Origin: Thermanaeromonas sp. | GTDB taxonomy: Bacteria > Bacillota > DSM-521 > Neomoorellales > Neomoorellaceae | DNA length: 61,479 nt | Reading direction: 5' to 3' | NCBI RefSeq assembly: GCF_021890735.1 | Contig: NZ_JAKKUR010000008.1 | Span: forward strand, 1-61,479 | Part shown: piece after piece, positions 265 to 13,540 of the stretch | Layout of the letters: the number at the start of each line of letters is the position of its first letter | Numbering within the stretch: position 1 is the first letter of the stretch | Program-made: the position numbers and the translations under genes | Notes under the pieces: generated by a model | What the model saw: the letters and a program-made list of their open reading frames with translations, nothing else | What the model was told of the DNA's origin: nothing | Database searches by the model: none

Positions 265-513
265 ATGGAACGCAGGATCGGCGTTATAGGTATAGTTATA
301 GAAGACAGAGAGAAGGCGGCCTCCCGGGTCAATACCATCTTAAGCGAATATGGTGACTATATCGTCGGCCGTATGGGCATCCCTTATCGTGAGAGGGGAG
401 TCGCAGTTATCGCCCTGATCGTAGATGGAAGCACGGATGTTGTGGGGGCTCTTACGGGTAAGTTAGGAAGTTTACCGGGGGTTAAGGTCCGGGCGGCTCT
501 AACTGGGAAGTAA
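265..513 (+). CDS. TM1266-type iron-only hydrogenase system regulator
   Basis: An 82-residue protein with the pattern of the TM1266 family, small ACT/ferredoxin-fold proteins encoded among [FeFe]-hydrogenase maturation genes: an N-terminal beta strand (RIGVIGIVIED), a conserved ILSEYGDYIVGRMGIPYRERG segment (positions about 25-45), and a C-terminal LGSLPGVKVRAAL. The start is the ATG at 265, with a purine-rich site (AGGGGGAAG) about 10 nt upstream. The gene sits between hydG and hydE, probably in one transcript. The family is presumed to be regulatory from genomic context; no ligand or target is evident here. Confidence 0.85.
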   Translation: MERRIGVIGIVIEDREKAASRVNTILSEYGDYIVGRMGIPYRERGVAVIALIVDGSTDVVGALTGKLGSLPGVKVRAALTGK

Positions 514-560: not shown

Positions 561-1625
561 TTGCGTAAAGAATTCGCCGATGCCCTATCGAGAATAGCCC
601 GCGGGGAGGAACCCGACAAAGCTTCCCTTGTAATCCTTCTTTCCGCTCAGCCTGGTGAAGAAGAGGAAGCCCTATACCGGGAAGCTGATACTTTACGAGC
701 TCAATATGTAGGTGACGAAGTACACCTGCGGGGGGTTATAGAATTCTCTAACCACTGCCGCCGGCTTTGCCATTATTGCGGGTTGCGCGCAGAGAACAAA
801 AACTTAAGGCGCTATCGCATGAAAAAAGAAGAGATCGTTGAGAGTGCCCGCCGGGCTTTGGAGCTGGGCTATGGCACGGTCGTGCTTCAGTCCGGAGAGG
901 ATACTTGGTATTCGGCGGAGATGCTAGCTGAAATAATAGCGGTCATTAAAGGTATGGGCCTTGCGGTTACCTTATGCGTAGGAGAGAGAGCACGAGAGGA
1001 ATATGCCCTCTGGCGGGAAGCTGGAGCCGACCGGTATCTCCTTAAGCATGAAACGGCGAACCCCCGGCTTTATCAGAAGCTTCATCCGGGTATGAGCTGG
1101 GAAGAACGGATAACTTGCCTGCAGTGGTTGCGGGAGCTAGGGTACCAGGTAGGCTCGGGCAATATTGTAGGCCTTCCAGGCCAAACCTTAGAAGATCTAG
1201 CCGAAGATCTCCTGCTTTTACGTAGCCTTGAGGTAGAGATGGCGGGCATAGGTCCCTTCATTCCTCATCCCAACACTCCCTTAGGAACCTATCCGGCGGG
1301 AAGCTTGGACTTAACTTACCGGGTATTGGCCGTGGCCCGGCTGGTTTTACCCTGGGCTCACCTGCCGGCTACAACAGCCGTGGGCACTTTGTCTCCTAAT
1401 GGCCGGCAGCTAGCCCTGCAGCGAGGAGCGAACGTAGTGATGCCCAACCTTACTCCCAGGCAATATCGTGCGGATTATCAGATTTATCCTGGCAAGATTT
1501 GTATTAATGAAGGGCCGGAAGACTGCCGCTATTGCCTGGAAGGGATGATACGGTCTTTGGGCCGGCGAGTTGGCAGGGGCCCTGGTCACAGTTTAAGGTA
1601 TTTGAGCCGGATAACAAAAAATTGA
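561..1625 (+). CDS. hydE: [FeFe]-hydrogenase maturase HydE (radical SAM)
   Basis: A 354-residue radical-SAM protein of normal HydE length. The SAM-cluster motif CX3CX2C is seen in CRRLCHYCG at about residues 68-76, followed by GYGTVVLQSGED and a C-terminal region with NEGPEDCRYCLEGM. HydE acts with HydF and HydG to build the di-iron subcluster of the [FeFe]-hydrogenase H-cluster; it processes the sulfur/cysteine-bound iron synthon made by HydG. The start is TTG at 561, placed by an AGGAGGTG ribosome site at 548-555. hydF is not in the window. Confidence 0.92.
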   Translation: MRKEFADALSRIARGEEPDKASLVILLSAQPGEEEEALYREADTLRAQYVGDEVHLRGVIEFSNHCRRLCHYCGLRAENKNLRRYRMKKEEIVESARRALELGYGTVVLQSGEDTWYSAEMLAEIIAVIKGMGLAVTLCVGERAREEYALWREAGADRYLLKHETANPRLYQKLHPGMSWEERITCLQWLRELGYQVGSGNIVGLPGQTLEDLAEDLLLLRSLEVEMAGIGPFIPHPNTPLGTYPAGSLDLTYRVLAVARLVLPWAHLPATTAVGTLSPNGRQLALQRGANVVMPNLTPRQYRADYQIYPGKICINEGPEDCRYCLEGMIRSLGRRVGRGPGHSLRYLSRITKN

Positions 1626-1707: not shown

Positions 1708-1727
1708 GATGGCGAATATAGTGCAAT
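1708..1727 (+). promoter_or_regulatory. Candidate sigma-54 promoter of the hydrogenase operon
   Basis: A GG pair (1711-1712) and a GC pair (1723-1724) are separated by exactly 10 nt, as sigma-54 -24/-12 promoters require. The -24 box reads TGGCGA and the -12 box GTGCAA, so the match outside the invariant GG/GC pairs is moderate. Initiation would fall near 1735, about 55 nt before the first gene. Support comes from the 22-nt element upstream, the Rex-like palindrome over the start site, and a sigma-54 activator gene in the same locus. Confidence 0.4.
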
Positions 1728-1743
1728 GTGAATGAGTTCACAG
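1726..1743 (+). promoter_or_regulatory. Rex-type operator
   Basis: ATGTGAATGAGTTCACAG contains the perfect inverted repeat TGTGAA-N4-TTCACA. Compared with the Rex consensus TTGTGAA-N4-TTCACAA, 12 of the 14 half-site bases agree. Rex is the NADH/NAD+-responsive repressor that in many Clostridia controls hydrogenase and fermentation genes. The site lies over the predicted start of transcription, where a bound repressor would block initiation. No rex gene is in the window. Confidence 0.6.
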
Positions 1744-1790: not shown

Positions 1791-2228
1791 CTGGAGTTTA
1801 CTTTTAAGGTTCAGGGCCGTAATTTTCACGCTGCCGGTGATGGTGCAAGTAGGCTGAAACACATCCTGCAGCAGGTGGGTTTCCCGCCTGAGCTTGTGAG
1901 GAGAGTAACTATTGCAGCCTTCGAAGCGGAAATGAATATTATTATACACGCCTATAGAGGTGAACTGAAGGTCGATATTTTGCCTGAAAAAATCGTAGTG
2001 ATAGCCGAGGACGAAGGCCCGGGTATTCCAGATATTGAACTGGCCATGCAGGAAGGGTATTCTACAGCACCGCCCGAGGTAAGGGAGATGGGTTTCGGTG
2101 CGGGGATGGGCCTTCCCAATATAAAGAGGTGCTCTGACAGGTTAGAAATCAAATCTGAAGTAGGTAGGGGGACGTTTTTACAGGCGGAGTTTTATCCTCG
2201 GGTTATGGAAGGGAAGATTATGGGGTAG
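1791..2228 (+). CDS. Histidine-kinase-like ATPase (RsbW/anti-sigma-type), probable CTG start
   Basis: A GHKL-fold ATP-binding protein of about 145 residues with N-box EAEMNIIIHA, G1 box DEGPGIPD and G2 box FGAGMGLPNIKR. It has no dimerisation or phosphoacceptor domain, so it resembles serine kinases/anti-sigma factors more than sensor kinases. The first ATG (1875) would remove the conserved N-terminal strand-helix. The frame is open back to 1785 and offers no ATG, GTG or TTG there, but has CTG at 1791 preceded, at 9-nt spacing, by GAGGTG (1776-1781). CTG is therefore the most likely start. It is the first gene of the hydrogenase operon. Its partner is unknown; a role in transmitting the state of the neighbouring hydrogenase-like sensor is inferred. 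Confidence 0.75.
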   Translation: MEFTFKVQGRNFHAAGDGASRLKHILQQVGFPPELVRRVTIAAFEAEMNIIIHAYRGELKVDILPEKIVVIAEDEGPGIPDIELAMQEGYSTAPPEVREMGFGAGMGLPNIKRCSDRLEIKSEVGRGTFLQAEFYPRVMEGKIMG

Positions 2229-2250
2229 GGGAAGGTAAGGTGCCTTAAAA

Positions 2251-3570
2251 TTGAAGTATTTTCATTCTGTGCATTTAGAGCGGGATAAATGCAAGGGTTG
2301 TACTAATTGCATAAAGCGTTGCCCTACTGAGGCTATCCGGGTGAGGGAAGGTAAGGCCCGCATAATAGAAGAGAGATGTATAGATTGCGGTGAATGTATA
2401 AGGGTCTGTCCCAATCATGCTAAGGTGGCGGTGGGGGATAAGTTAGAGAGATTACAGGATTTCGAGTACACCATCGCCCTTCCGGCTCCTTCCTTTTACT
2501 CCCAGTTTGACCCGGCTAACGGCATACCGCGGCTACTAGGAGCTTTGCTCAAGTTAGGTTTTAACGCTGTATTTGAAGTGGCATTGGCTGCAGAGGCGGT
2601 ATCATGGGCTACGAGGCGCTTTCTAGAAGAGTATGATGGTCCGCGGCCCCTTATTTCTGCGGCCTGCCCGGCGGTAGTGAGTTTAATCGAGGTACGCTTT
2701 CCTTCTTTGATAAACCAGGTTATTCCCGTGGAACCGCCGGTTAATGTGGCTGCTAGAATAGCGCGGGAACAAGCTGTAAGGTCTACGGGGCTGCCTCCTT
2801 CCAAGATCGGCATCTTCTTTTTGTCGCCTTGCCCGGCCAAGATTACGGCCGTCCGCCAGGCTAAAGCCAGGGAAGAAAGTTTGGCTGATGGCAGTATCCC
2901 TATCATGGATATATACGGTGAATGTCTGGATGCTCTTAAAAGTGCTGACCAGGTCCTTCCTCTGGCGGGGAGCCAAGGTGTGGGGTGGGGGCGCACAGGC
3001 GGGGAGAACGAAGCACTGGGCTACGGGCGGCTGTTAGAAGTGGATGGTATTCACCATGTCATTAAAGTGCTAGAGGCCGTAGAGAAGGGAGAGCTGAAGC
3101 AGTTCGATTATATAGAAGCCCAAGCGTGCCCCGGAGGATGTGTAGGCGGGCCGTTGATGGTAAGGAATCCCTTTGAAGCGCGGAAGATACTAGATTTTCT
3201 GCGCCGGAGTTTAACAAGCCGCGACATAGAAAGTGAAGAAATAAGAAATTTGGCGGAAAGAGGTAGGTGGCGGAGCAGGTGGCGGCCTGAACCCCGTCCG
3301 GCCTTGCGCCTGGACGAAGATATAGCTTGTGCTCTTGTGAAAATGCAGCAATTGGAGGAGACGGCCAGGCTCCTTCCGGGGCTTGATTGTGGCGCCTGTG
3401 GATCTCCTAACTGCCGGGCGCTGGCAGAGGATATAGTGAGGGGGCAGGCTTCAGATACCGACTGCATCTTTCTGTTGAGGGAACGTGTCCGCGTGCTGGC
3501 GGAAGAAGTGGTGGAACTGGCCAGGAAACTGCCACCTCCTTTGGCCGAACCTGAAAGGAGCAGCAAGTAA
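2251..3570 (+). CDS. Sensory-type [FeFe]-hydrogenase homologue with C-terminal Fes domain
   Basis: A 439-residue iron-sulfur protein, TTG start with AAGGTG 8 nt upstream. Two [4Fe-4S] ferredoxin motifs lie at about residues 14-24 and 43-53. An H-cluster-like domain follows (about 70-320), then a Fes-type motif (DCGACGSPNC, about 375). The H-cluster signatures are altered: L1 reads SAACPAVV where catalytic enzymes have TSC(C/S)PGW, L2 is SPCPAKITA and lacks the usual Glu, and L3 is ACPGGCVGGP. The four cluster-binding cysteines remain, but the proton-transfer Cys is Ala. This pattern fits a sensor or low-activity enzyme rather than a turnover hydrogenase (inference). It lies between an ATPase and a DRTGG gene in the hydABC operon. 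Confidence 0.8.
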   Translation: MKYFHSVHLERDKCKGCTNCIKRCPTEAIRVREGKARIIEERCIDCGECIRVCPNHAKVAVGDKLERLQDFEYTIALPAPSFYSQFDPANGIPRLLGALLKLGFNAVFEVALAAEAVSWATRRFLEEYDGPRPLISAACPAVVSLIEVRFPSLINQVIPVEPPVNVAARIAREQAVRSTGLPPSKIGIFFLSPCPAKITAVRQAKAREESLADGSIPIMDIYGECLDALKSADQVLPLAGSQGVGWGRTGGENEALGYGRLLEVDGIHHVIKVLEAVEKGELKQFDYIEAQACPGGCVGGPLMVRNPFEARKILDFLRRSLTSRDIESEEIRNLAERGRWRSRWRPEPRPALRLDEDIACALVKMQQLEETARLLPGLDCGACGSPNCRALAEDIVRGQASDTDCIFLLRERVRVLAEEVVELARKLPPPLAEPERSSK

Positions 3571-3912
3571 ATGACCGTAGGCGAGATAGCCTCTAATCTG
3601 GGTTTAAAGGTGATAGCCGGGCATAAAGGCTTAGGGCGGGAAGTTACCACCGGGTACGCTGCTGACCTTTTAAGCGATGTCATCGCCCATGCACCCCAGG
3701 GCTGTCTGTGGTTTACTCTGCAGACGCACGAGAACGTGGTAGCCGTAGCCTTGCTTATCGATGCTGCAGGAATAGTTATTACGGGAGGGCGCAAGCCGGA
3801 AGAAGCTACGTGCAAGCGAGCAGAAAAGGAGGGCATCCCACTTCTTAGTAGCCCGGAGAACACCTTTGTTCTCGGGGGCAAGCTCTATGCGCTTCTTATG
3901 GGTCAGAGATGA
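3571..3912 (+). CDS. DRTGG-domain protein
   Basis: A 113-residue single-domain protein of the DRTGG family, the small domain also found linked to CBS domains and in BioD-like/Pta proteins. The fold is suggested by TVGEIASNLGLKVIAG at the N-terminus, GCLWFTLQTHENVVAVA in the middle and AAGIVITGGRKPEE near residue 70. Its ATG follows immediately on the preceding stop, and its stop overlaps the next ATG (ATGA), so translation is coupled. Such proteins recur beside HydABC genes and lone ATPases in Clostridia. Their ligand is unknown. Confidence 0.75.
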   Translation: MTVGEIASNLGLKVIAGHKGLGREVTTGYAADLLSDVIAHAPQGCLWFTLQTHENVVAVALLIDAAGIVITGGRKPEEATCKRAEKEGIPLLSSPENTFVLGGKLYALLMGQR

Positions 3913-4682
3913 GGGGGTTTATAGGAGACCTGCATATCCATACCGCTCTGTCGCCTTGTGCCGGGGAGCAAATGACGCCTCCTGCTATTGTGGCCCAAGC
4001 CCTTAAAGCCGGACTAGATTTTATCGCCGTTACCGATCACAACAGCGCCGGCAATGTAGAGGCAGTTATGGAGGCTGCACGGGGTACCATCTTAAAAGTA
4101 TGGCCCGGCTTAGAGGTCCAAACCAAAGAAGAAGTACATTTGGTTTGCCTTTTTGACAGCGTAGAAACGGCTTTGGCCTGGCAGGATGTGGTTTACAGGC
4201 ACCTGCCGCCGGGTGAAAACATAGAGAACATTTGGGGAACCCAGCTGTTGCTGGACGCCCGGGGAAAAGAAAGGGGTAGGGAAAAACGGCTTCTTCTGCA
4301 GAGCACCAGCCTTAGTATAGAAGAAGTGTTTCGGGGGGTGAGCCTTCTTGAGGGGATAGTAATACCTGCCCACGTGGATAGGCAAGCGTATAGTTTACTT
4401 AATGTGCTAGGTTTTATCCCCCCGGGTTTGCCTATAACAGCACTAGAGGTGAGCCGGGCGGAGAACCTGGAAAGGATAAGAAGCCGCACATCGTTGCCCC
4501 AAGGCTTTTCCTTGATAGCCTCTTCCGATGCTCATTATTTGGAGGATATAGGGCAGCTTGCTACCTGTTTCTGTATGCACGAGTTGACCTTCTCAGAGCT
4601 GCGTTTAGCCCTGGCCGGTGAAGGAGGACGAAAGGTGGTGATGGTTCAAGGGGCCGGTGGATATTTCAGAGTAGTAGAGTAA
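3909..4682 (+). CDS. PHP-domain metal-dependent phosphoesterase
   Basis: A 257-residue PHP-family hydrolase. Metal ligands are visible in order: GDLHIHTALSPC (His 8 and 10), VTDHNSAGN (about 42-50), the Glu in WPGLEVQT, PAHVDR (about 155) and SSDAHY (about 205). The family hydrolyses phosphoesters using two or three metal ions. The start overlaps the DRTGG stop by 4 nt. Its place among hydrogenase subunits and ATPases suggests it turns over a phosphorylated signal or nucleotide connected to hydrogenase control (inference). Confidence 0.82.
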   Translation: MRGFIGDLHIHTALSPCAGEQMTPPAIVAQALKAGLDFIAVTDHNSAGNVEAVMEAARGTILKVWPGLEVQTKEEVHLVCLFDSVETALAWQDVVYRHLPPGENIENIWGTQLLLDARGKERGREKRLLLQSTSLSIEEVFRGVSLLEGIVIPAHVDRQAYSLLNVLGFIPPGLPITALEVSRAENLERIRSRTSLPQGFSLIASSDAHYLEDIGQLATCFCMHELTFSELRLALAGEGGRKVVMVQGAGGYFRVVE

Positions 4683-4729
4683 CCCGTTCAATATTTGGTC
4701 CAAAGTCCGAGGAGGTGCAAGAAACCGAC

Positions 4730-5203
4730 ATGGAAGCTTGCAAATGCGAAGAAAAATGGGAACAGCTTAATGAAATTATCAAGGCTCACCGCGGCCAGCC
4801 TTCTAGCCTTATTGAGGTATTGCATAAGGCTCAGGAGCTTATCGGTTATCTCCCTAAACAGGTGCTTATAGCCATAGCTGAAGGGTTGGGCGTATCCTTA
4901 AGCGAGGTTTATAGTGTAGTATCCTTTTATGCCTACTTTACTACTAAACCCAAAGGCAAATATCAGATCTCCTTGTGCAAGGGTACGGCTTGTTATGTTA
5001 AGGGTGCTCCGGAGATCCTGGAACGCTTGGAAAAAGAGCTGGGTATTAAAGCTGGCGATAGCACCGATGATGGTAGGTTTTCCTTGGAAGTCGTTCGCTG
5101 TTTGGGAGCCTGCGGTCTGGCTCCGGTGATGATGGTGAACAAGAGGGCTTACGGTCTTTTGAGGCCGGATAAAGCCGTGGCCGTGCTCCAGACCTATCAA
5201 TGA
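4730..5203 (+). CDS. hydC: HydC: NuoE-like [2Fe-2S] subunit of the NAD-linked hydrogenase
   Basis: A 157-residue thioredoxin-like [2Fe-2S] protein of the NuoE/HydC family. The four ligands appear as CKGTAC and CLGAC, separated by about 36 residues, with the family sequence LGVSLSEVYSVVSFYAYF before them. With HydB and HydA it forms the cytoplasmic NAD-dependent, typically electron-bifurcating [FeFe]-hydrogenase. ATG 4730 is preferred over GTG 4715, because the latter lies inside the GGAGGTG ribosome site at 4711-4717; the spacing to ATG, 12 nt, is long. The stop overlaps the next ATG. Confidence 0.88.
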   Translation: MEACKCEEKWEQLNEIIKAHRGQPSSLIEVLHKAQELIGYLPKQVLIAIAEGLGVSLSEVYSVVSFYAYFTTKPKGKYQISLCKGTACYVKGAPEILERLEKELGIKAGDSTDDGRFSLEVVRCLGACGLAPVMMVNKRAYGLLRPDKAVAVLQTYQ

Positions 5204-5751
5204 TGGAAGAACTAGCCCTGCATATCTTAGATATAATGGAAAATTCCCTGGCCGCCGGTGCGAGTTTATTAGAATTGACGATTTTAGAAGATCCGGTGGC
5301 CAACCGGATGATTATTGAGTTAACAGACAACGGTAGGGGGATGAGTGAAAAGGAAAGGCAGGCAGCACTGGATCCGTTTTTTACAAGCCGTACTACCAGG
5401 CGGGTAGGATTAGGGTTATCCCTTCTTAGAGCAACAGCCGAGCAGTGTGGAGGAAGCTTAACTTTAGTTTCTCAACCAGGTAAGGGGACCCGGGTAGTGG
5501 TCACTCTGGAGTTAAATCATATAGACCGCCCACCCCTGGGCGATATGGGGGCCACCATAGCTTCAATCTTAAGCAGGGAGGATCCGCCCGAGGTTTACTA
5601 TTACCACCAGAGAGGCAAAGAAGCCTTTGAGTTTTCTACCTCCTGGCTAAAGGAACAGTTAGGGGATATACCTGTTAATCTAGCACCGGTCCTAAAGTGG
5701 GTTCAGAGTCACATAGATGAAGGGTTAAAGGCTTTATATGGGGGTGAATAG
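5200..5751 (+). CDS. Histidine-kinase-like ATPase, second copy in operon
   Basis: A 183-residue GHKL ATPase starting at ATG 5200, which overlaps the hydC stop (ATGA). The N-box is ILDIMENSLAAGA, the G1 box TDNGRGM and the G2 box RRVGLGLSLL, with GTRVVVTLEL closing the fold at about residue 105. The C-terminal 75 residues are not recognisable. There is no phosphoacceptor histidine domain. It differs from the first ATPase (1791-2228), so the two are not a recent duplication. Such lone ATPases commonly accompany Clostridia hydABC genes; the function is unknown, and kinase activity towards a partner in the operon is plausible. Confidence 0.75.
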   Translation: MMEELALHILDIMENSLAAGASLLELTILEDPVANRMIIELTDNGRGMSEKERQAALDPFFTSRTTRRVGLGLSLLRATAEQCGGSLTLVSQPGKGTRVVVTLELNHIDRPPLGDMGATIASILSREDPPEVYYYHQRGKEAFEFSTSWLKEQLGDIPVNLAPVLKWVQSHIDEGLKALYGGE

Positions 5752-5756
5752 GGTTT

Positions 5757-6116
5757 ATGAAGTCCGTGGAAGACCTGCTTAAACTAAAGAAAGAGATTCA
5801 AGAATCCATTGCCCTACGTGAAGGAGGAGACAAGATCAAAGTTGTTGTAGGTATGGGTACCTGCGGTATAGCGGCCGGAGCCCGGGAAGTTATGTCTGCC
5901 CTGCTGGATGAGCTGGCTAAACGCCGGCTGACGAATGTAGTGGTTACTCAGACAGGCTGTATAGGATTGTGCGCACAAGAACCGCTGGTAGATGTGTTTG
6001 TACCGGGCAAGCCGCGGGTCACCTATGGCAAGGTGGATGCACAAAAGGCCCGCCAGATTGTAGCCCAGCATATAGTTAATGGGATCGTAATAAACGAATG
6101 GGTAGTAAATAAGTAG
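5757..6116 (+). CDS. Thioredoxin-like [2Fe-2S] ferredoxin
   Basis: A 119-residue protein of the shethna/NuoE-like thioredoxin-fold ferredoxin family, with cysteines in VGMGTCGIAAGARE (about residue 39) and QTGCIGLCAQEPLVDV (about 73-77). Similar domains form the N-terminus of HydB proteins, and the following HydB carries its own copy. It lies directly between the second ATPase and hydB in the operon. A role as an electron carrier or extra subunit of the HydABC complex is inferred. Confidence 0.8.
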   Translation: MKSVEDLLKLKKEIQESIALREGGDKIKVVVGMGTCGIAAGAREVMSALLDELAKRRLTNVVVTQTGCIGLCAQEPLVDVFVPGKPRVTYGKVDAQKARQIVAQHIVNGIVINEWVVNK

Positions 6117-6143
6117 CCGTTGGCCATAGGGAGGGGGATGAAG

Positions 6144-9100
6144 ATGGAATTCTATCGCGCCCATGTTCTTATATGTGCTGGTACGGGATGCACGGCTTCC
6201 GAGAGCCAGGCGACCAGAGAAGCCCTGGTAAAGGAGTTAATGGCCCGGGGTTTGGATAAGGAGATAAAGGTAGTGGAGACGGGCTGCTTCGGTTTTTGCC
6301 GTTTTGGCCCCAATATGATGGTCTATCCCGAAGGGGTATTCTACTGTACCGTACGGCCCGAGGATGTGCCGGAACTTGTGGAAGAGCATTTTATAAAGGG
6401 CCGGATAGTGGAGCGCTTGCTTTACAAGCAGCCGGAAACCGAGGCTGCGGTCTCTTCCTTTGAAGAGATACCCTTCTTCAAACACCAGCTCCGTATTGCT
6501 TTACGCAACTGCGGGGTGATTAACCCGGAATCCATCGAAGAATACATCGCCCGCGATGGATATTTGGCTCTGGCTAAAGTATTGACCGAGATGAAACCGG
6601 AAGAGGTTATAGACATAATTAAAAAATCCGGCCTTAGGGGGCGAGGCGGCGGAGGGTTCCCAACGGGGCTAAAATGGGAATTCGCCTACCGTTCTCCGGG
6701 ACCTGTAAAGTACGTCGTATGTAACGCAGACGAAGGAGATCCGGGGGCTTTCATGGACCGGAGCATCTTGGAAGGCGATCCCCATGCTGTACTGGAAGGG
6801 ATGGCCATTGCCGGATATGCCATTGGCGCAAACCAAGGATATATTTACGTGCGGGCAGAATATCCCATCGCGGTGCACCGCCTTAAAATCGCCATCAGCC
6901 AAGCGCGAGAAAAGGGTCTCTTAGGCAAAAACCTGTTTAATTCGGGCTTTGATTTTGATATAGACATCAGGCTTGGAGCAGGCGCCTTCGTATGTGGAGA
7001 AGAGACAGCGCTTTTGGCCTCCATTGAGGGGCGCAGGGGTGAACCGCGACCGAGGCCTCCTTTCCCCGCCGTGTCGGGCTTGTGGGGCAAGCCCACAGTT
7101 ATCAATAATGTAGAGACCCTGGCTAATGTACCTACTATCATTCGCAACGGCTGGGAATGGTTTGCCTCTATCGGTACGGAAAAGAGCAAGGGCACCAAGG
7201 TTTTCGCCCTGGCTGGCAAGATAAACAATAACGGGCTGGTTGAGGTGCCCATGGGCACCACCTTGGGCGAGGTAATCTACGATATCGGTGGCGGTATACC
7301 CGGCGGTAAAAAGTTTAAGGCCGCCCAGACGGGAGGCCCTTCAGGCGGGTGCATCCCCGCTGAGCACCTTAATGTGCCCATCGATTACGAATCCCTTACT
7401 GCCTTGGGAACTATCATGGGTTCCGGCGGCCTCATCATAATGGATGAGGATACTTGCATGGTGGACTTGGCCAAATTCTTCCTGGAGTTTGTTAAGGATG
7501 AATCCTGCGGTAAGTGCACCCCTTGCCGTATCGGCACTACCCGGATGTTGGAGATACTGGACCGTATAACCAAGGGGCAGGGCCGGGAAGGAGATATTGA
7601 ACTTCTTATTGAACTGGGGCAGCAGATTAAGGATACCGCCCTCTGCGGCCTGGGCCAGACGGCTCCGAATCCAGTGCTCAGCACCATAAGGTATTTCCGG
7701 GACGAGTATGAAGCCCATATCAGGGATAAACGCTGCCCGGCCTCTGTGTGCGCGGCACTTTTCCATTCACCTTGCCAGAATACCTGCCCGGCCAATGTAG
7801 ATGTGCCCATTTATATCGACCTTATCCGCCAGGGCCGTTTTGCTGAAGCCTACGAGGTGATCCGGCGGGAGAACCCCTTCCCTGTAGTGTGTGGCCGTGT
7901 CTGCCATCATCCCTGTGAAGGCAAATGCAACCGGGCCAAGATGGATCAAGCCGTGGCTATAAGGGAGCTTAAGAGGTTTGCCGCGGACTACGCCTTGTCT
8001 TTAAATGGACAGCGGCCAAGACCCGTAGTTTCTCCTGCTAATGGGAAGAAGGTGGCCGTTGTCGGTGCGGGCCCGGCGGGGCTCACGGCAGCTTATTACC
8101 TGGCCTTAAAGGGTTACGCAGTTACTGTTTTTGAGGCTCTACCGGTGGCCGGAGGTATGATGGCCGTAGGTATTCCCGAATACCGGCTGCCCAAGAAGAC
8201 CTTGGCCCAGGAGATTGAGACCATTACGGAGCTGGGTGTAGAAATCCGGACCAATAAGGCTTTGGGCCGCGACTTTACCCTGGAGGACCTGAAGAAAGAG
8301 GGTTACCAGGCCGTCTTCCTTGCCGTCGGTGCCCATAAGGATCTTAAGCTCGGCATCCCGGGAGAGGAGCTTTCGGGAGTTTATTCCGGGGTAACCTTCC
8401 TGCGGGAGCTTAACTTAGGGCGTCCCGTGGATGTAAAGGATAAGGTGGTAGCGGTTATCGGTGGCGGAAATGTGGCTATGGATGCGGCCCGCTCGGCTAA
8501 ACGCCTGGGGGCTAGAGAAGTACACGTTATCTACCGGCGCACTAAAGAAGACATGCCCGCCATACGGGAAGAGATCCGTGAAGCAGAAAGGGAAGGGATT
8601 AAGATTACCTGCCTGGCGGCACCGGTAGCCATTCTGGGTGAAGCCGGGCGCGTGAAGGCTTTAAGGTGTGCCAAGATGCGTCCCGGGGATTTTGATAAGA
8701 GTGGCCGGCGCCGGCCTGTGCCTGTTGAAGGCGGGGAGTTTACTTTAGACGTGGATGTGGTTGTTGCGGCTATTGGCCAGACCGTGGAGAAGGAGGCCTT
8801 GCCCGGGGACCTCGAACTCAGCCCTGCGGGGACCATTGTAGCCGACGAAAAAACTTTGGCTACTAACCTACCCGGCGTCTTTGCGGGGGGAGATTGCGTG
8901 AGCGGCCCAGACACAGTAATCACGGCTATTGCTGCGGGCAAAAAAGCTGCAGCAGCCATCGATAAATACCTGGGCGGTGACGGTATAGTAATGCCGCAGG
9001 TCCAGGTGGAACGTAAGCGTACGGCACCGGTCATCGAGGAGAAAACCGAGCGAGTAAAGGTTCCCACCCTGCCAGTGGAAGAGCGGCTTAAAGGTTTTGC

Positions 9101-9179
9101 CGAGGTTGAACTGGGTTATAGTCCAGAACAGGCCATGGCTGAGGCGGCTCGGTGCTTGCGCTGCGACGTACGGGAATAG
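6144..9179 (+). CDS. hydB: HydB (NuoF-like) fused to a GltD/NfnB-like NAD(P)H oxidoreductase
   Basis: A 1011-residue fusion. Residues 1-95 are a thioredoxin-like [2Fe-2S] domain (CAGTGC, CFGFC). Residues about 110-540 are a NuoF module with [13 protein letters not shown] and [10 protein letters not shown] for FMN/NADH and the [4Fe-4S] ligands CGKCTPCR. HydB normally ends in a two-cluster ferredoxin domain. Here, after KRCPASVC, a complete GltD-like module of about 465 residues follows: cysteines in CQNTCPANV and [13 protein letters not shown], an FAD loop [12 protein letters not shown], an NAD(P) loop [12 protein letters not shown], and [11 protein letters not shown]. The enzyme may therefore connect H2 with two pyridine-nucleotide sites. 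ATG 6144 is chosen because GGGAGGGGG lies 6 nt upstream. The frame is uninterrupted across the junction. Confidence 0.87.
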
Positions 9180-9211
9180 CTTGTAAGCCAAAGGACGGGA
9201 GGCGAATAAGG

Positions 9212-10933
9212 ATGAGCATGGTTTCAGTGACTATTGATAATGTAAAGGTAGAGGTCGAAGCCGGCACTACTATTTTAAAAGCCGCAGAGAAGGCCGGTAT
9301 CCACATCCCTACCTTATGCTATCTGGAAGGTATTAACGAGATAGGTGCCTGCCGTGTATGTGTGGTAGAAGTAGAAGGGGCACGTAATTTGGCGGCTGCT
9401 TGTGTAACGCCAGTTTCCGACGGCATGGTAGTCCGCACCAATACCCCGCGGGTGCGGGCTGCCCGCCGCCTAAACGTGGAGCTTTTGCTTTCCAATCATA
9501 AGATGGAGTGCCCGACTTGCATCCGCAACCTGAATTGTGAGCTGCAAACGCTGGCGCAAACTTTAGGGATACGGGAGGTCCGCTTTGAGGGCAAAAGAAC
9601 AACGTACCAGGCTGATACGTCTACTCCAGCCCTTGTGCGCGATCCCGAAAAATGTATCCTCTGCCGCCGCTGTGTCGCAGTATGCGAAAAGGTGCAGACT
9701 GTTAAGGCCATCGCACCCCAAGAGAGGGGTTTCGAAACAGTCATCGCCCCGGCTTTTCACGAAAAACTTATTAACGTGGCCTGCGTAGAGTGCGGCCAGT
9801 GCATCCTGGTATGTCCGGTGGGAGCTTTGTATGAAAAGGATTATACCGAAGAAGTTTGGGAAGCACTGGCCGACCCGGAGAAATTCGTGGTAGTTCAGAC
9901 GGCTCCTGCTACCAGGGTGTCCATCGGGCAAGAGTTCGGCTATCCGCCCGGTGCCATCACCACGGGTAAAATGGTGGCGGCCTTAAGGCGTTTAGGGTTC
10001 GATCGTGTTTTCGATACCGACTTTTCAGCGGACCTTACCATTATGGAAGAAGGTAGCGAATTTATAGAGCGGTTTAAAAAAGGAGAGAGACTGCCCCTTC
10101 TCACCTCTTGTAGTCCGGGCTGGATCAAGTTTATCGAGCACTTTTACCCCGAGCTTTTGCCGCATTTATCCACCTGTAAATCCCCACAGCAAATGTTCGG
10201 CGCGGTAGCGAAAACCTATTATGCCCAAAAGGTAGGTATAGATCCGTCCCGGATGGTAGTGGTGTCTATAATGCCCTGCACGGCCAAAAAATTCGAAGCG
10301 CAGCGGCCTGAAATGAAGGACAGCGGATACCAAGATGTGGATTACGTTCTTACCACCCGGGAGCTTGCCCGGATGATCAAAGAGGCGGGTATCGATTTTC
10401 AGAGCCTGCCGGAAGAAGACTATGATGACCCATTGGGCGAGTCCACCGGTGCGGCTGTGCTTTTTGGAACCACCGGTGGTGTGATGGAAGCTGCCCTGCG
10501 TACGGCTTACGAGCTGATGACGGGGAAAGAGCTGCCGAGGTTGGAGTTCCATGAGGTGCGGGGTCTAAAGGGTATTAAGGAAGCCACCATTGATATTGAA
10601 GGTACCCCGGTACGGGTGGCGGTAGCCCATGGCCTGGGCCACGCCCGGGAACTCTTAGAACGGGTCAAAGCAGGGGAAAAATACCACTTTATCGAGATCA
10701 TGTGCTGCCCCGGTGGGTGTATTGGCGGCGGAGGGCAGCCTATTCCTACGAACGAGGAAATTAGGGCTCAGCGCATGGCAGGTATTTACAGCGCTGATGA
10801 GCGTATGGTAATACGTAAATCCCACGAGAATCCTTCTATTAAAGCCCTGTACCGGGAGTTTTTGGGTCATCCTTTAAGCGAGAGATCCCACCAACTGTTG
10901 CATACCCATTATACGCCGCGGGGTAAGTATTAA
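9212..10933 (+). CDS. hydA: HydA, catalytic [FeFe]-hydrogenase subunit
   Basis: A 573-residue catalytic subunit. In order it has a [2Fe-2S] domain (CYLEGINEIGACRVC), a His-ligated [4Fe-4S] motif (HKMECPTCIRNLNC), two [4Fe-4S] motifs (CILCRRCVAVC and CVECGQCILVC) and the H-cluster domain with L1 TSCSPGW, L2 MPCTAKKFE and L3 MCCPGGCIGG. TSCSPGW, with Ser in place of the second Cys of TSCCPGW-type enzymes, is usual in NAD-linked bifurcating hydrogenases. The start is ATG 9212, with GGGAGG about 9 nt upstream. Last gene of the operon, closed by a terminator at 10956. Confidence 0.93.
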   Translation: MSMVSVTIDNVKVEVEAGTTILKAAEKAGIHIPTLCYLEGINEIGACRVCVVEVEGARNLAAACVTPVSDGMVVRTNTPRVRAARRLNVELLLSNHKMECPTCIRNLNCELQTLAQTLGIREVRFEGKRTTYQADTSTPALVRDPEKCILCRRCVAVCEKVQTVKAIAPQERGFETVIAPAFHEKLINVACVECGQCILVCPVGALYEKDYTEEVWEALADPEKFVVVQTAPATRVSIGQEFGYPPGAITTGKMVAALRRLGFDRVFDTDFSADLTIMEEGSEFIERFKKGERLPLLTSCSPGWIKFIEHFYPELLPHLSTCKSPQQMFGAVAKTYYAQKVGIDPSRMVVVSIMPCTAKKFEAQRPEMKDSGYQDVDYVLTTRELARMIKEAGIDFQSLPEEDYDDPLGESTGAAVLFGTTGGVMEAALRTAYELMTGKELPRLEFHEVRGLKGIKEATIDIEGTPVRVAVAHGLGHARELLERVKAGEKYHFIEIMCCPGGCIGGGGQPIPTNEEIRAQRMAGIYSADERMVIRKSHENPSIKALYREFLGHPLSERSHQLLHTHYTPRGKY

Positions 10934-11079: not shown

Positions 11080-13359
11080 GTGAGTGGCATAGTGAGAACA
11101 ATCACAGGAAAATGCCGCATGTGCTATGCGTGTGTCCGTAACTGCCCGGTAAAGGCTATTAGGGTGGTGGACGGGCAAGCCCAGGTTGTGCCCGAGCGCT
11201 GCATCGCTTGCGGATATTGCGTACGTGTCTGCTCACAGCAGGCTAAGATGATAGAAAGTGAAATAGAGATAGTTAAAGAGTTTTTAGAACACGAAAAGAC
11301 GGTAGCTTGCCTTGCGCCCTCCTTTGTGGCCGAGTTTCACCCTGCCTGGCCCGGGCAGGTGGCCTGCGCTTTGCGTAAATTAGGTTTTTATGAGGTGCAT
11401 GAGGTGGCCTTCGGCGCCTATCTTGTAACCCAAGAATACCTCAGATTCTTAAAGGAGGTCGGCGAAAGCCAGGGGTTCATCAGCACCCCCTGTCCTGCCG
11501 TAGTTAATCTAGTCCAAAAATATTTCCCCCGCCTTATTCCCCGGCTTGTTCCCATTGTTTCTCCTGCCGTGGCCTTGGGGCGCTATCTAAAAAAGAAGCT
11601 GGGCCCCGGAATTAAAGTGGTATTTATAGGGCCCTGTGTGGCCAAGAAGGACGAAGCCAGGGCTGAAGAAGTAGCGGGAGCCATAGATGCCGTTTTGACC
11701 TACCCGGAACTAAAACAGATGCTTCAAGAGAAAGGAATAGAGGTAACCTCTGTAGAAGACGAAGGATTTGATAATCCTAAGCCCGAACTGGGACGCCTGT
11801 ATCCTATTGGCGGGGGACTTTTGCGCAGTGCGGGTATGATGGCGGATATACTAGAAAGCAGGTTGCTGGTCATTGAGGGCCGAGATGACTGCTTGGAATT
11901 CCTTAAAGCGGCTAATGAAGGTAAAATGGTACCACAGCTCGTAGATATGCTGTTCTGCAAAGGCTGTATTGAAGGCCCCATGATGCAAAATGAGTATTCT
12001 TCCTTCCGGCGAAGGCGTATAGTAGCCGAGTTTACCCGGGAGGGTCTGGCTTTAGGTGAACAGGGTAAAACCGGTGGCCGCGAGGATCTGGCTGTTTACC
12101 TCAACGGGGTTAACTTGCGACGTGAATTCCGGGATGAGAGGGTACATCTGCCGCAGCCCAGCGAAGCTGAAATTCGGGCTATCATGGCCGAGCTGGGTAA
12201 AATGGGGCCGGAAGATGAACTAAATTGCGGTGCCTGCGGGTATTCTTCCTGCCGGGAGAAGGCTATAGCTGTATATCAAGGGCTGGCTGAGAATGAGATG
12301 TGCCTGCCTTATTTAATCCTACAGTTACAGAAGAGCAATCTCCGGCTCAAGCAAGAGCTTAACACGGTACGCAAGCAGTTCGGCGATATTGTAGGCAAGA
12401 GCTTAGCCATGCAAGAAGTGTACAGGTTAATCGAGAAGGTGGCTCCGACCGATGCTACAGTCCTTATACGTGGCGAAAGCGGTACCGGAAAGGAGCTAGT
12501 AGCACGGGCCATCCATTACCGGAGCTTGCGTAGCGATGGCCCCTTTATAAGTATTAACTGTGCGGCCCTCCCCGAGACGCTGTTGGAAAGCGAACTTTTC
12601 GGGCACGCTAAGGGGGCCTTTACCGGTGCCGTTACCAGCAAGCGCGGCCTCTTTGAGGAAGCGCACCAGGGCACTTTGTTCCTAGATGAAATAGGAGATA
12701 TAAGCTTGGGGTTGCAGAGTAAACTTTTAAGAGTCTTGCAGGAAGGAGAGTTTATACGGGTAGGAGAGACCAGGCCGCGAAAGGTTGACGTGCGGGTAAT
12801 TGCAGCCACTAACCGGGATCTGGAGAAGGCCATCAAAGAGGGGTCCTTCCGGCCGGAGCTTTTCTATCGGCTGAATGTAGTCACTATTTGGTTACCTCCG
12901 TTGCGGGAGAGGCGGGATGACATTCCCTTGCTGGCCAGGCATTTCCTCCAGAGGGCTTGCCAGCGGCTCGGCAAGGAGATTAAAGGATTTACGGCCGAGG
13001 CTATGGACGCTTTAGTTCGGGCCGACTGGCCGGGGAATGTGAGGGAGCTGGAGAACGTCGTGGAACGGGCCGCCATCCTTTGTGAGGGGGATAAGATAGA
13101 GCTGGGAGACCTCCCCCGGGAAATCCGCAACCGCGCTGCCAATGCTACGGGCTGGGCCTACACCAAGGGTATGACCTTTAGAGAGGCCGTACAGGCCTAC
13201 GAGGTCCAATTGCTTCTTAAGGCTTTAGAAGAGAGTAAATGGGTTCAGGCGCGTGCGGCTGAAATTTTGGGACTAAAGCGGAGCACTTTGAATGAGATGC
13301 TCAAGCGGTACCGGATCTCTCCCAAAATGGTCAAGATGTATTCGGAAAACCGGATGTAA
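11080..13359 (+). CDS. [FeFe]-hydrogenase-like sensor fused to a sigma-54-dependent transcription activator
   Basis: A 759-residue protein. Residues 1-60 hold two [4Fe-4S] motifs ([22 protein letters not shown]). About 65-310 is an H-cluster-like domain with L1 [10 protein letters not shown]2 GPCVAKKDE and a shortened L3 FCKGCIEGP. About 375-415 is a Fes motif ([10 protein letters not shown]). After a short helical linker (about 418-440) comes the AAA+ domain: GESGTGKE (Walker A), GAFTGA (the sigma-54 contact loop) and GTLFLDEI (Walker B). A Fis-type helix-turn-helix ends the protein ([18 protein letters not shown]). The proton-transfer Cys of L1 is Pro, so sensing of H2 or redox state rather than catalysis is inferred. 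Starts at GTG 11080 with GGGGGG upstream. Probable targets are the promoters near 1708 and 13523. Confidence 0.88.
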
Positions 13360-13522: not shown

Positions 13523-13540
13523 TTGGCATGATTCTTGCTA
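13523..13540 (+). promoter_or_regulatory. Sigma-54 promoter
   Basis: TTGGCATGATTCTTGCTA matches the sigma-54 consensus YTGGCACGRNNNTTGCW at every fixed position except one (C to T in the -24 box), with GG and GC exactly 10 nt apart. Transcription would begin near 13550. It lies downstream of a terminator and of the 22-nt element, so it appears to serve the short transcript that ends at about 14015. Confidence 0.72.

Follow-up and report, generated by a model that had tools for sequence, protein, structure and literature searches.

What are two kinase-like ATPases, a hydrogenase-like protein, a DRTGG protein and a PHP phosphoesterase doing within the operon of a bifurcating [FeFe]-hydrogenase? 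This question is raised by contig NZ_JAKKUR010000008.1 of Thermanaeromonas sp. (assembly GCF_021890735.1), of which positions 1 to 61,479 were analyzed (61,479 nt, hereafter the window). The original prediction, made from the sequence letters alone, had placed a set of hydrogenase-linked signaling genes at 1791-6116. This placement was borne out. The set is also more than a chance neighborhood: most of the 160 loci compared from other genomes show the same order of genes. The conserved cassette order is DRTGG0-HATP1-HydS-DRTGG1-PHP-HATP2, in which HATP1 and HATP2 are the ATPases, HydS is the hydrogenase-like protein and DRTGG0 is a second DRTGG member. From the genes and their neighbors, it is probable that anaerobic bacteria use this widely conserved cassette to detect hydrogen and to tune the enzymes that keep their electrons in balance.

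The comparison covered 20 loci of relatives, a named set comprising the best 80 of 580 named loci (GTDB genomes) and 80 loci from an even 219-genome sample of the phylum. The named set was found by an alignment query (A5) and leans to near relatives because only the best 80 of 580 were kept; a contig scan with the single HydS protein as query gave no matches. Among the 80 sample loci, HATP1 is the immediate upstream neighbor of HydS in 73/77 testable cases, DRTGG1 is downstream of HydS in 71/76, PHP downstream in 67/76 and DRTGG0 upstream of HATP1 in 58/77, and HATP1, DRTGG1, PHP and DRTGG0 are all present in 52/73. These neighbor counts are too low, because further sample loci with DRTGG0 fused to HATP1 (six) or HydS fused to DRTGG1 (two) come on top. 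In the named set the corresponding counts are 73/75 for HATP1, 62/66 for DRTGG1, 59/66 for PHP and 68/75 for DRTGG0, and its members include records named Deltaproteobacteria, Sumerlaeota, Spirochaetes, Atribacteria and Armatimonadetes. Phylogenetic profiling with HydABC, which the original prediction had named as a check, was performed across the 219 genomes using presence thresholds of E<=1e-60 for HydS, E<=1e-28 for HATP1 and E<=1e-90 for HydA. HydS was positive in 79 genomes (including G130, whose match was weaker, at 205 bits), HATP1 in 83 and HydA in 155; by genus (n=174) the numbers are 58, 62 and 121. HydS and HATP1 co-occur near-perfectly (both 77, HydS alone 2, HATP1 alone 6, neither 134; Fisher 4e-49, uncorrected for kinship), but the link to HydABC is less strict (HydS and HydA both 73, HydS alone 6, HydA alone 82, neither 58; Fisher 3e-8, likewise uncorrected).

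Natural fusions occur within the cassette: in the named and sample sets taken together (160 loci, with a species possibly present in both sets), DRTGG0-HATP1 was found in eight, PHP-HATP2 in five, HydS-DRTGG in three and HATP2-HydD, which includes a small thioredoxin-like protein, in one. The sensor position is also variable. Four genomes with HATP1 and without HydS (L212-L215) carry two CBS domains (E ~1e-30) fused in front of HATP1, and three of them keep DRTGG0, DRTGG1, PHP and HATP2, while two further loci (L217, L218) present DRTGG0-HATP1-DRTGG1-HATP2 without HydS and without PHP. Because HydS-less cassettes carry the CBS pair fused to HATP1, HydS looks like an input that can be exchanged for at least one other. 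A DRTGG1-type protein also sits about 5 kb from HydA in a genome of the same family that has neither HydS nor HATP1 (G009:C2:129390-129689), possibly as a relic of the cassette.

HydS (2251..3570, + strand), a group D (M2e) [FeFe]-hydrogenase homolog by its sequence, comprises two N-terminal ferredoxin motifs (two Fer4), the H-domain (PF02906 E 4.8e-27) and a C-terminal iron-sulfur (FeS) domain (PF04060 E 1.1e-13), and the domain scan gave no match to a PAS domain. All 16 cluster cysteines (four of the H-cluster, eight of the Fer4 motifs and four C-terminal) are invariant in 156/156 HydS sequences. The catalytic positions differ: the window protein has Ala138 at the place of C299, Ser192 at M353 and Gln291 at M497. 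At the C299 place the 156 sequences present Ala (117), Ser (31), Tyr (3), Thr (3) or Asn (1), which accounts for 155/156 with the remaining state not printed, and the M353 place is Thr or Ser in 155/156. The replacement of the C299 cysteine agrees with the predicted catalytic alteration. In a 26-row HydS/HydA tree, 16 group D-like rows including the Thermoanaerobacter wiegelii HydS fall on one branch with the window HydS (support 86/92), TamHydS of T. mathranii itself being absent and the T. wiegelii homolog included. The latter has cysteines at 20 and 379, the numbers published for TamHydS, and its residues at the two Met positions are Ser and Leu, matching the published protein (PMC8163306, PMC13104023). 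TamHydS, a putative sensory hydrogenase also of group D (M2e), shares with the window HydS two N-terminal [4Fe-4S] clusters, an H-domain without Cys299, a C-terminal [4Fe-4S] cluster and the lack of a PAS domain, and its gene, with that of a histidine-kinase-like ATPase next to it, lies 5' of a group A bifurcating hydrogenase (PMC8163306, PMC13104023); this adjoining ATPase was described in T. mathranii (PMC8163306). In contrast, the DRTGG/PHP cassette, the fusions and the CBS exchange are not found in the available parts of its published description. That group D hydrogenases lie 5' of bifurcating hydrogenases near histidine or serine kinases is likewise published for clostridial sensory hydrogenases of the M2e type, for which regulation was suggested (PMC3561251 Table 6, PMC3492117), although kinases and phosphatases are named only generally in the available text, with no conserved set and no target beyond HydABC. 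Another related case is that of the group C3 phosphatase-linked [FeFe]-hydrogenases, in which a hydrogenase-like sensor is also tied to serine/threonine phosphorylation, but the partners are serine/threonine phosphatases rather than DRTGG and PHP proteins, and group C has a PAS domain that the window HydS lacks (PMC5037454).

The two lone histidine-kinase-like ATPases of the original prediction are indeed two ATPases with intact ATP-binding residues, but they are of different types: HATP1 is SpoIIAB-like and HATP2 of the histidine-kinase/MutL type. HATP1 (1791..2228, + strand; PF13581 E 5.5e-11), annotated as a putative serine kinase or partner-binding ATPase of the GHKL superfamily, matches the SpoIIAB structure 1til (E 2.2e-10) and keeps the SpoIIAB-type Glu45 and Asn49 of the N-box and the G-box residues in 162/162 sequences (the conservation sets for HATP1, HydS, DRTGG, PHP and HATP2 were chosen by score and coverage). 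SpoIIAB-like ATPases are usually protein kinases. With the SpoIIAB/RsbW partner-switching kinases HATP1 thus shares the GHKL fold, the N-box Glu/Asn, the G boxes and the arrangement as a lone small ATPase, but it scores 53.7 bits against TIGR01925 (cut-off 135) and 22.5 bits against NF003144 (cut-off 145), and the scanned locus offers DRTGG partners instead of STAS, PP2C or sigma-factor proteins. As the original prediction had stated, no STAS or receiver partner was found, nor a sigma factor for HATP1, among the ten locus products scanned or in HydB, a set that does not take in HydA or the remainder of the window. HATP2 (5200..5751, + strand; PF02518 E 2.1e-16) carries an additional C-terminal domain of about 75 residues; its only family matches are to HATPase_c, with no HisKA phospho-acceptor domain. 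Its ATP-site residues are kept in 131/131 sequences, and its model (predicted local distance difference test, pLDDT, 90.6) resembles the ATPase domains of histidine kinases, MutL and BCKDK. Across loci, HATP2 and HydB travel with HydD (5757..6116, + strand), a small thioredoxin-like [2Fe-2S] protein that scores 21.7 bits against PF01257, below the cut-off of 24.8. In Acetomicrobium mobile, the NiFe-HydABCSL operon includes hydD and hisK genes whose products are not in the holoenzyme (PMC9304861 Figure 1 legend). By name and place these may correspond to HydD and HATP2. They differ in that no role is given in the available text, whereas HATP2 also accompanies PHP, forms a single protein with it in five loci and is kept in cassettes without HydABC.

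DRTGG1 (3571..3912, + strand; PF07085 36.5 bits, cut-off 25.2) is a stand-alone DRTGG domain with a confident AlphaFold model (pLDDT 97), in which Ser35 opens helix 34-40 after a strand. Its fold matches AF1212 (2ioj; Z 15.6 over 110 residues, root-mean-square deviation 2.3), the HprK N-domain (Z 13.6), the DRTGG domain of a CBS-pyrophosphatase (Z 13.5) and also MurE N-domains, with no STAS proteins among the structural matches listed. Asp32, Ser35 and Thr49 are each kept in 151/151 DRTGG1 sequences, and in DRTGG0 in 146/147, 147/147 and 146/147, respectively. This set was not seen in 14 DRTGG domains from outside the cassette, in an alignment uncertain by one residue; strict cassette specificity of Ser35 holds only partly, as 6/14 of these domains have a serine one place off. 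PHP (3909..4682, + strand) is a phosphoesterase as predicted, passing the PF02811 cut-off (36.4 against 26.4 bits) with an intact metal site: His9, His11, Cys17, Asp43, His44, Glu69, His77, His155, Asp207 and His209 are kept in 142/142 sequences. Its nearest solved structures are EndoQ, a 5'-3' exoribonuclease and TM0559, and its scores against the 3',5'-nucleoside bisphosphatase/RNase RNM models lie far below their cut-offs (NF041577, 30.8 of 400 bits; NF047791, 30.3 of 375 bits). A pair of CBS domains is usually an adenine-nucleotide sensor. Together with the folding of DRTGG1 like the DRTGG domain of CBS-pyrophosphatase and the N-domains of HprK and MurE, the kinship of PHP with nucleases and nucleotide phosphatases rather than protein phosphatases and the CBS pair as sensor of the HydS-less cassettes, this would favor a small-molecule signal, in which DRTGG binds a nucleotide-like ligand, HydS and the ATPases alter its binding or synthesis and PHP hydrolyzes it. 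We consider this unlikely, though worth keeping in view, given that the Asp32/Ser35/Thr49 set was not encountered in the other DRTGG domains (with the one-residue alignment doubt), that the SpoIIAB-like ATPase would usually be a protein kinase and that PHP is missing in some lineages.

The interpretation favored here, which we regard as evenly balanced between right and wrong, is that of an H2-gated phospho-signaling cassette coupling the H2/redox state to the enzymes responsible for the balance between NADH and reduced ferredoxin. HydS, in which another residue takes the place of the proton-transfer cysteine, would read H2 and change conformation, as suggested by its family, and would pass the signal to DRTGG1 and HATP1. 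Because HydS-DRTGG and DRTGG0-HATP1 fusions occur, the HydS/DRTGG1 and DRTGG0/HATP1 pairs are suggested to act together. HATP1, as a SpoIIAB-like kinase, would phosphorylate its DRTGG partners, with the invariant Ser35 at the helix start as the most likely site. PHP, which is often adjacent to HATP2 or fused with it, would reverse or limit this phosphorylation. HATP2 with HydD may then hand the output to the neighboring enzyme, which is HydABC here and formate dehydrogenase-Bfu or Rnf elsewhere. Fusions and gene order suggest the partner pairs, whereas the chemistry and the direction of the signal are what we infer. Of the kinase/phosphatase device that the original prediction had described, the conserved, sensor-centered unit, the intact ATP sites and the metal site of PHP are supported; an obligate kinase/phosphatase pairing is weakened because several lineages that keep the rest lack PHP. 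On a wider scale, the cassette may represent a modular signaling class, with a chassis of two DRTGG proteins, a SpoIIAB-type kinase, PHP and a lone GHKL ATPase, an exchangeable sensor (group D for H2, or CBS for nucleotides), DRTGG in place of STAS with Ser35 as the phospho-switch, and an output setting electron flow through HydABC, formate dehydrogenase-Bfu or Rnf; this is put forward tentatively, as a possible rather than a probable generalization.

Several points weigh against this interpretation. HATP1 scores under the curated SpoIIAB cut-off, and Ser35 and Thr49 may bind a ligand, because DRTGG resembles ligand-binding folds such as the MurE N-domain. PHP is absent from five loci (L038, L064, L065, L079, L150) in which others of the cassette are kept, and no orthologue was found elsewhere in these genomes, four of which gave partial matches of 52-59 bits. 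The predicted set stands as a conserved, partly fused unit centered on a hydrogenase-like sensor, but DRTGG0 is absent from the window's genome, and the same-genus relative L038 lacks both DRTGG0 and PHP. Three loci of one family (L164, L187, L189) consist of HATP1-HydS without DRTGG or PHP, four others (L052, L162, L180, L181) of HydS-DRTGG1 without HATP1 nearby, and 13/80 sample loci, several of them cut by contig ends, lack any presumed target. Finally, the support consists of sequence, gene context and models.

The neighboring enzymes vary. Among the 80 sample loci, 34 have [FeFe] HydA, 11 HydA and Rnf, four only Rnf and 13 only HydB, and in five a molybdopterin formate-dehydrogenase-like subunit follows a shortened HydA (a Pfam scan covered two of these molybdopterin proteins, and the rest were recognized from their similarity to one of this pair). 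Six loci (L170, L199, L203, L205, L209, L219) have the cassette attached to an operon made up of HydC, HydB, shortened HydA and the molybdopterin subunit, which by its composition is likely an electron-bifurcating formate dehydrogenase. At five others (L202, L204, L207, L212, L215) the cassette or parts of it are followed by an Rnf operon, and two nearly complete genomes with no HydA match (G066, G207) hold a free-standing six-gene cassette. A strict tie of the cassette to HydABC is ruled out by these Rnf, formate dehydrogenase and stand-alone loci. Independence from HydABC, named in the original prediction as the finding that would speak against it, thus applies in part, to a minority of loci on Rnf, on formate dehydrogenase or alone and to 6/79 HydS genomes without a HydA match at E<=1e-90. 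From the named set, 25 loci had no HydA, HydB or HydC in view; seven on short contigs were left out of the HydA check, and a HydA relative was found elsewhere in the genome in 18/18 tested. Across these gene neighborhoods, what the loci have in common is NADH/ferredoxin balance and not simply a hydrogenase.

The linkage to Bfu-type enzymes and Rnf would also suit a role in assembly or repair, in which HydABC and related FeS enzymes have the GHKL ATPases, DRTGG and PHP as their chaperones or assembly factors, with HydS as a degenerate scaffold. In the window, genes for a TM1266-type regulator of iron-only hydrogenase systems (265..513, + strand; PF21699 E 2.8e-34, TIGR03959 above cut-off) and for the H-cluster maturase HydE (561..1625, + strand; TIGR03956 372 bits, cut-off 254.6) lie directly upstream, HATP2 resembles MutL and histidine-kinase ATPase domains, and a bifurcating-hydrogenase operon encodes hisK and hydD outside the enzyme (PMC9304861). 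Such a role is nevertheless quite improbable: every H-cluster and FeS cysteine is kept in 156/156 HydS sequences, unlike in a dead scaffold, sensor domains are exchanged between HydS and CBS, and the cassettes of G066 and G207 stand alone in genomes with no HydA match.

Transcriptional control of the locus was also considered. The perfect palindrome TGTGAATGAGTTCACA at 1727..1742 (no strand assigned), 5' of HATP1, is the sole exact match in the window, and the same 18-mer as the window palindrome site occurs in the same-genus locus L038. It is a Rex-type (or CRP/FNR-type) operator candidate that fits the Rex consensus. Upstream of the cassette, Rex-type palindromes with <=3 mismatches to two consensus forms were found in 38 and 50 of 164 loci, compared with 6.5 and 9.1 in random windows, and a repeat count gave 31 and 43 of 164, compared with 6.9 and 10.6 in dinucleotide shuffles; the two counts differ because the repeat dropped low-scoring DRTGG0 genes that had set the upstream end in the 20 relatives. 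A sigma-54 promoter upstream of the cassette was rejected, with no match at <=1 mismatch. At 11080-13359 lies a single protein in which a sigma-54 activator with a Fis-type helix-turn-helix is joined to an [FeFe]-hydrogenase domain and a C-terminal FeS domain. By its domains it is a putative one-piece H2-responsive transcription factor, and a similar-sized homolog is kept in same-family genomes without HydS. A good -24/-12-like sigma-54 match, TGGCATGATTCTTGCT, occurs at 13524-13539, 165 bp past the activator gene, and sigma-54-type matches in the window are fewer than in shuffles. This activator with its own hydrogenase domain 3' of the operon, the closeness of HATP1 to SpoIIAB and the assumed regulation of expression by the group C HydS of T. 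maritima (PMC10055695) would agree with HATP1 as an anti-sigma-type switch through which the cassette governs operon transcription via an unlinked sigma factor or regulator, with DRTGG replacing the anti-anti-sigma factor. This is the reading to which we give least credence, and it is very improbable. The products scanned at the window locus include no sigma factor, the activator is separable from HydS because three same-family genomes without HydS (G006, G007, G009) keep it, and the Rex-type sites already offer a possible transcriptional input. As a separate observation, at L164:6983-8896 the gene after HATP1-HydS encodes a hydrogenase-domain/MCP chemoreceptor (group C2-like), and a dCache/GAF/PAS histidine kinase lies nearby.

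The occurrence of group D enzymes near kinases and HydABC is already published (PMC3561251, PMC3492117), but neither the complete cassette nor its fusions, the CBS exchange or the Rnf and formate contexts were found in the accessible parts of the open-licence literature searched. Finding the interaction partners of group D sensory hydrogenases has been called critical in the 2026 paper on TamHydS (PMC13104023). If the modular-class proposal is true, the cassette would supply these missing partners, whose interactions are directly testable because it gives a short fixed partner list with natural fusions. Should HydABC, Fdh-Bfu and Rnf prove to be under its control, the device would represent a general way for anaerobes, including acetogens and ethanol producers, to set H2 output and redox balance.

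Regarding the gene calls, HATP1 has an open frame at 1785-2228 with a probable CTG start at 1791, the first GTG being at 1875. The six products of the original prediction are all present as genes, but the count is seven, since two thioredoxin-like proteins, HydC and HydD, had been merged. HydC (4715..5203, + strand; PF01257 E 7.8e-52) was ruled out as a member of the signaling set: it is a NuoE-like [2Fe-2S] subunit of the bifurcating hydrogenase whose position relative to PHP and HATP2 varies, and the cassette elsewhere occurs with HydC at other positions or without it. Coupling through overlaps or gaps of a few bases holds for most junctions within 1791-6116 (4-bp overlaps or 0-5 bp gaps), but not for HATP1/HydS (22 bp) and PHP/HydC (32 bp). 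TM1266 and HydE lie 5' and HydB and HydA 3' of the HATP1-to-HydD run, with one direction throughout. The probable target context comprises HydA (9152..10933, + strand), the catalytic [FeFe] subunit of the bifurcating hydrogenase, which falls in its own clade (100/100), and HydB (6120..9179, + strand), a NuoF-like flavoprotein. Because HydB carries a fused GltD-like domain (Fer4_20 and Pyr_redox_2), the bifurcating hydrogenase of the window may use NADP(H).

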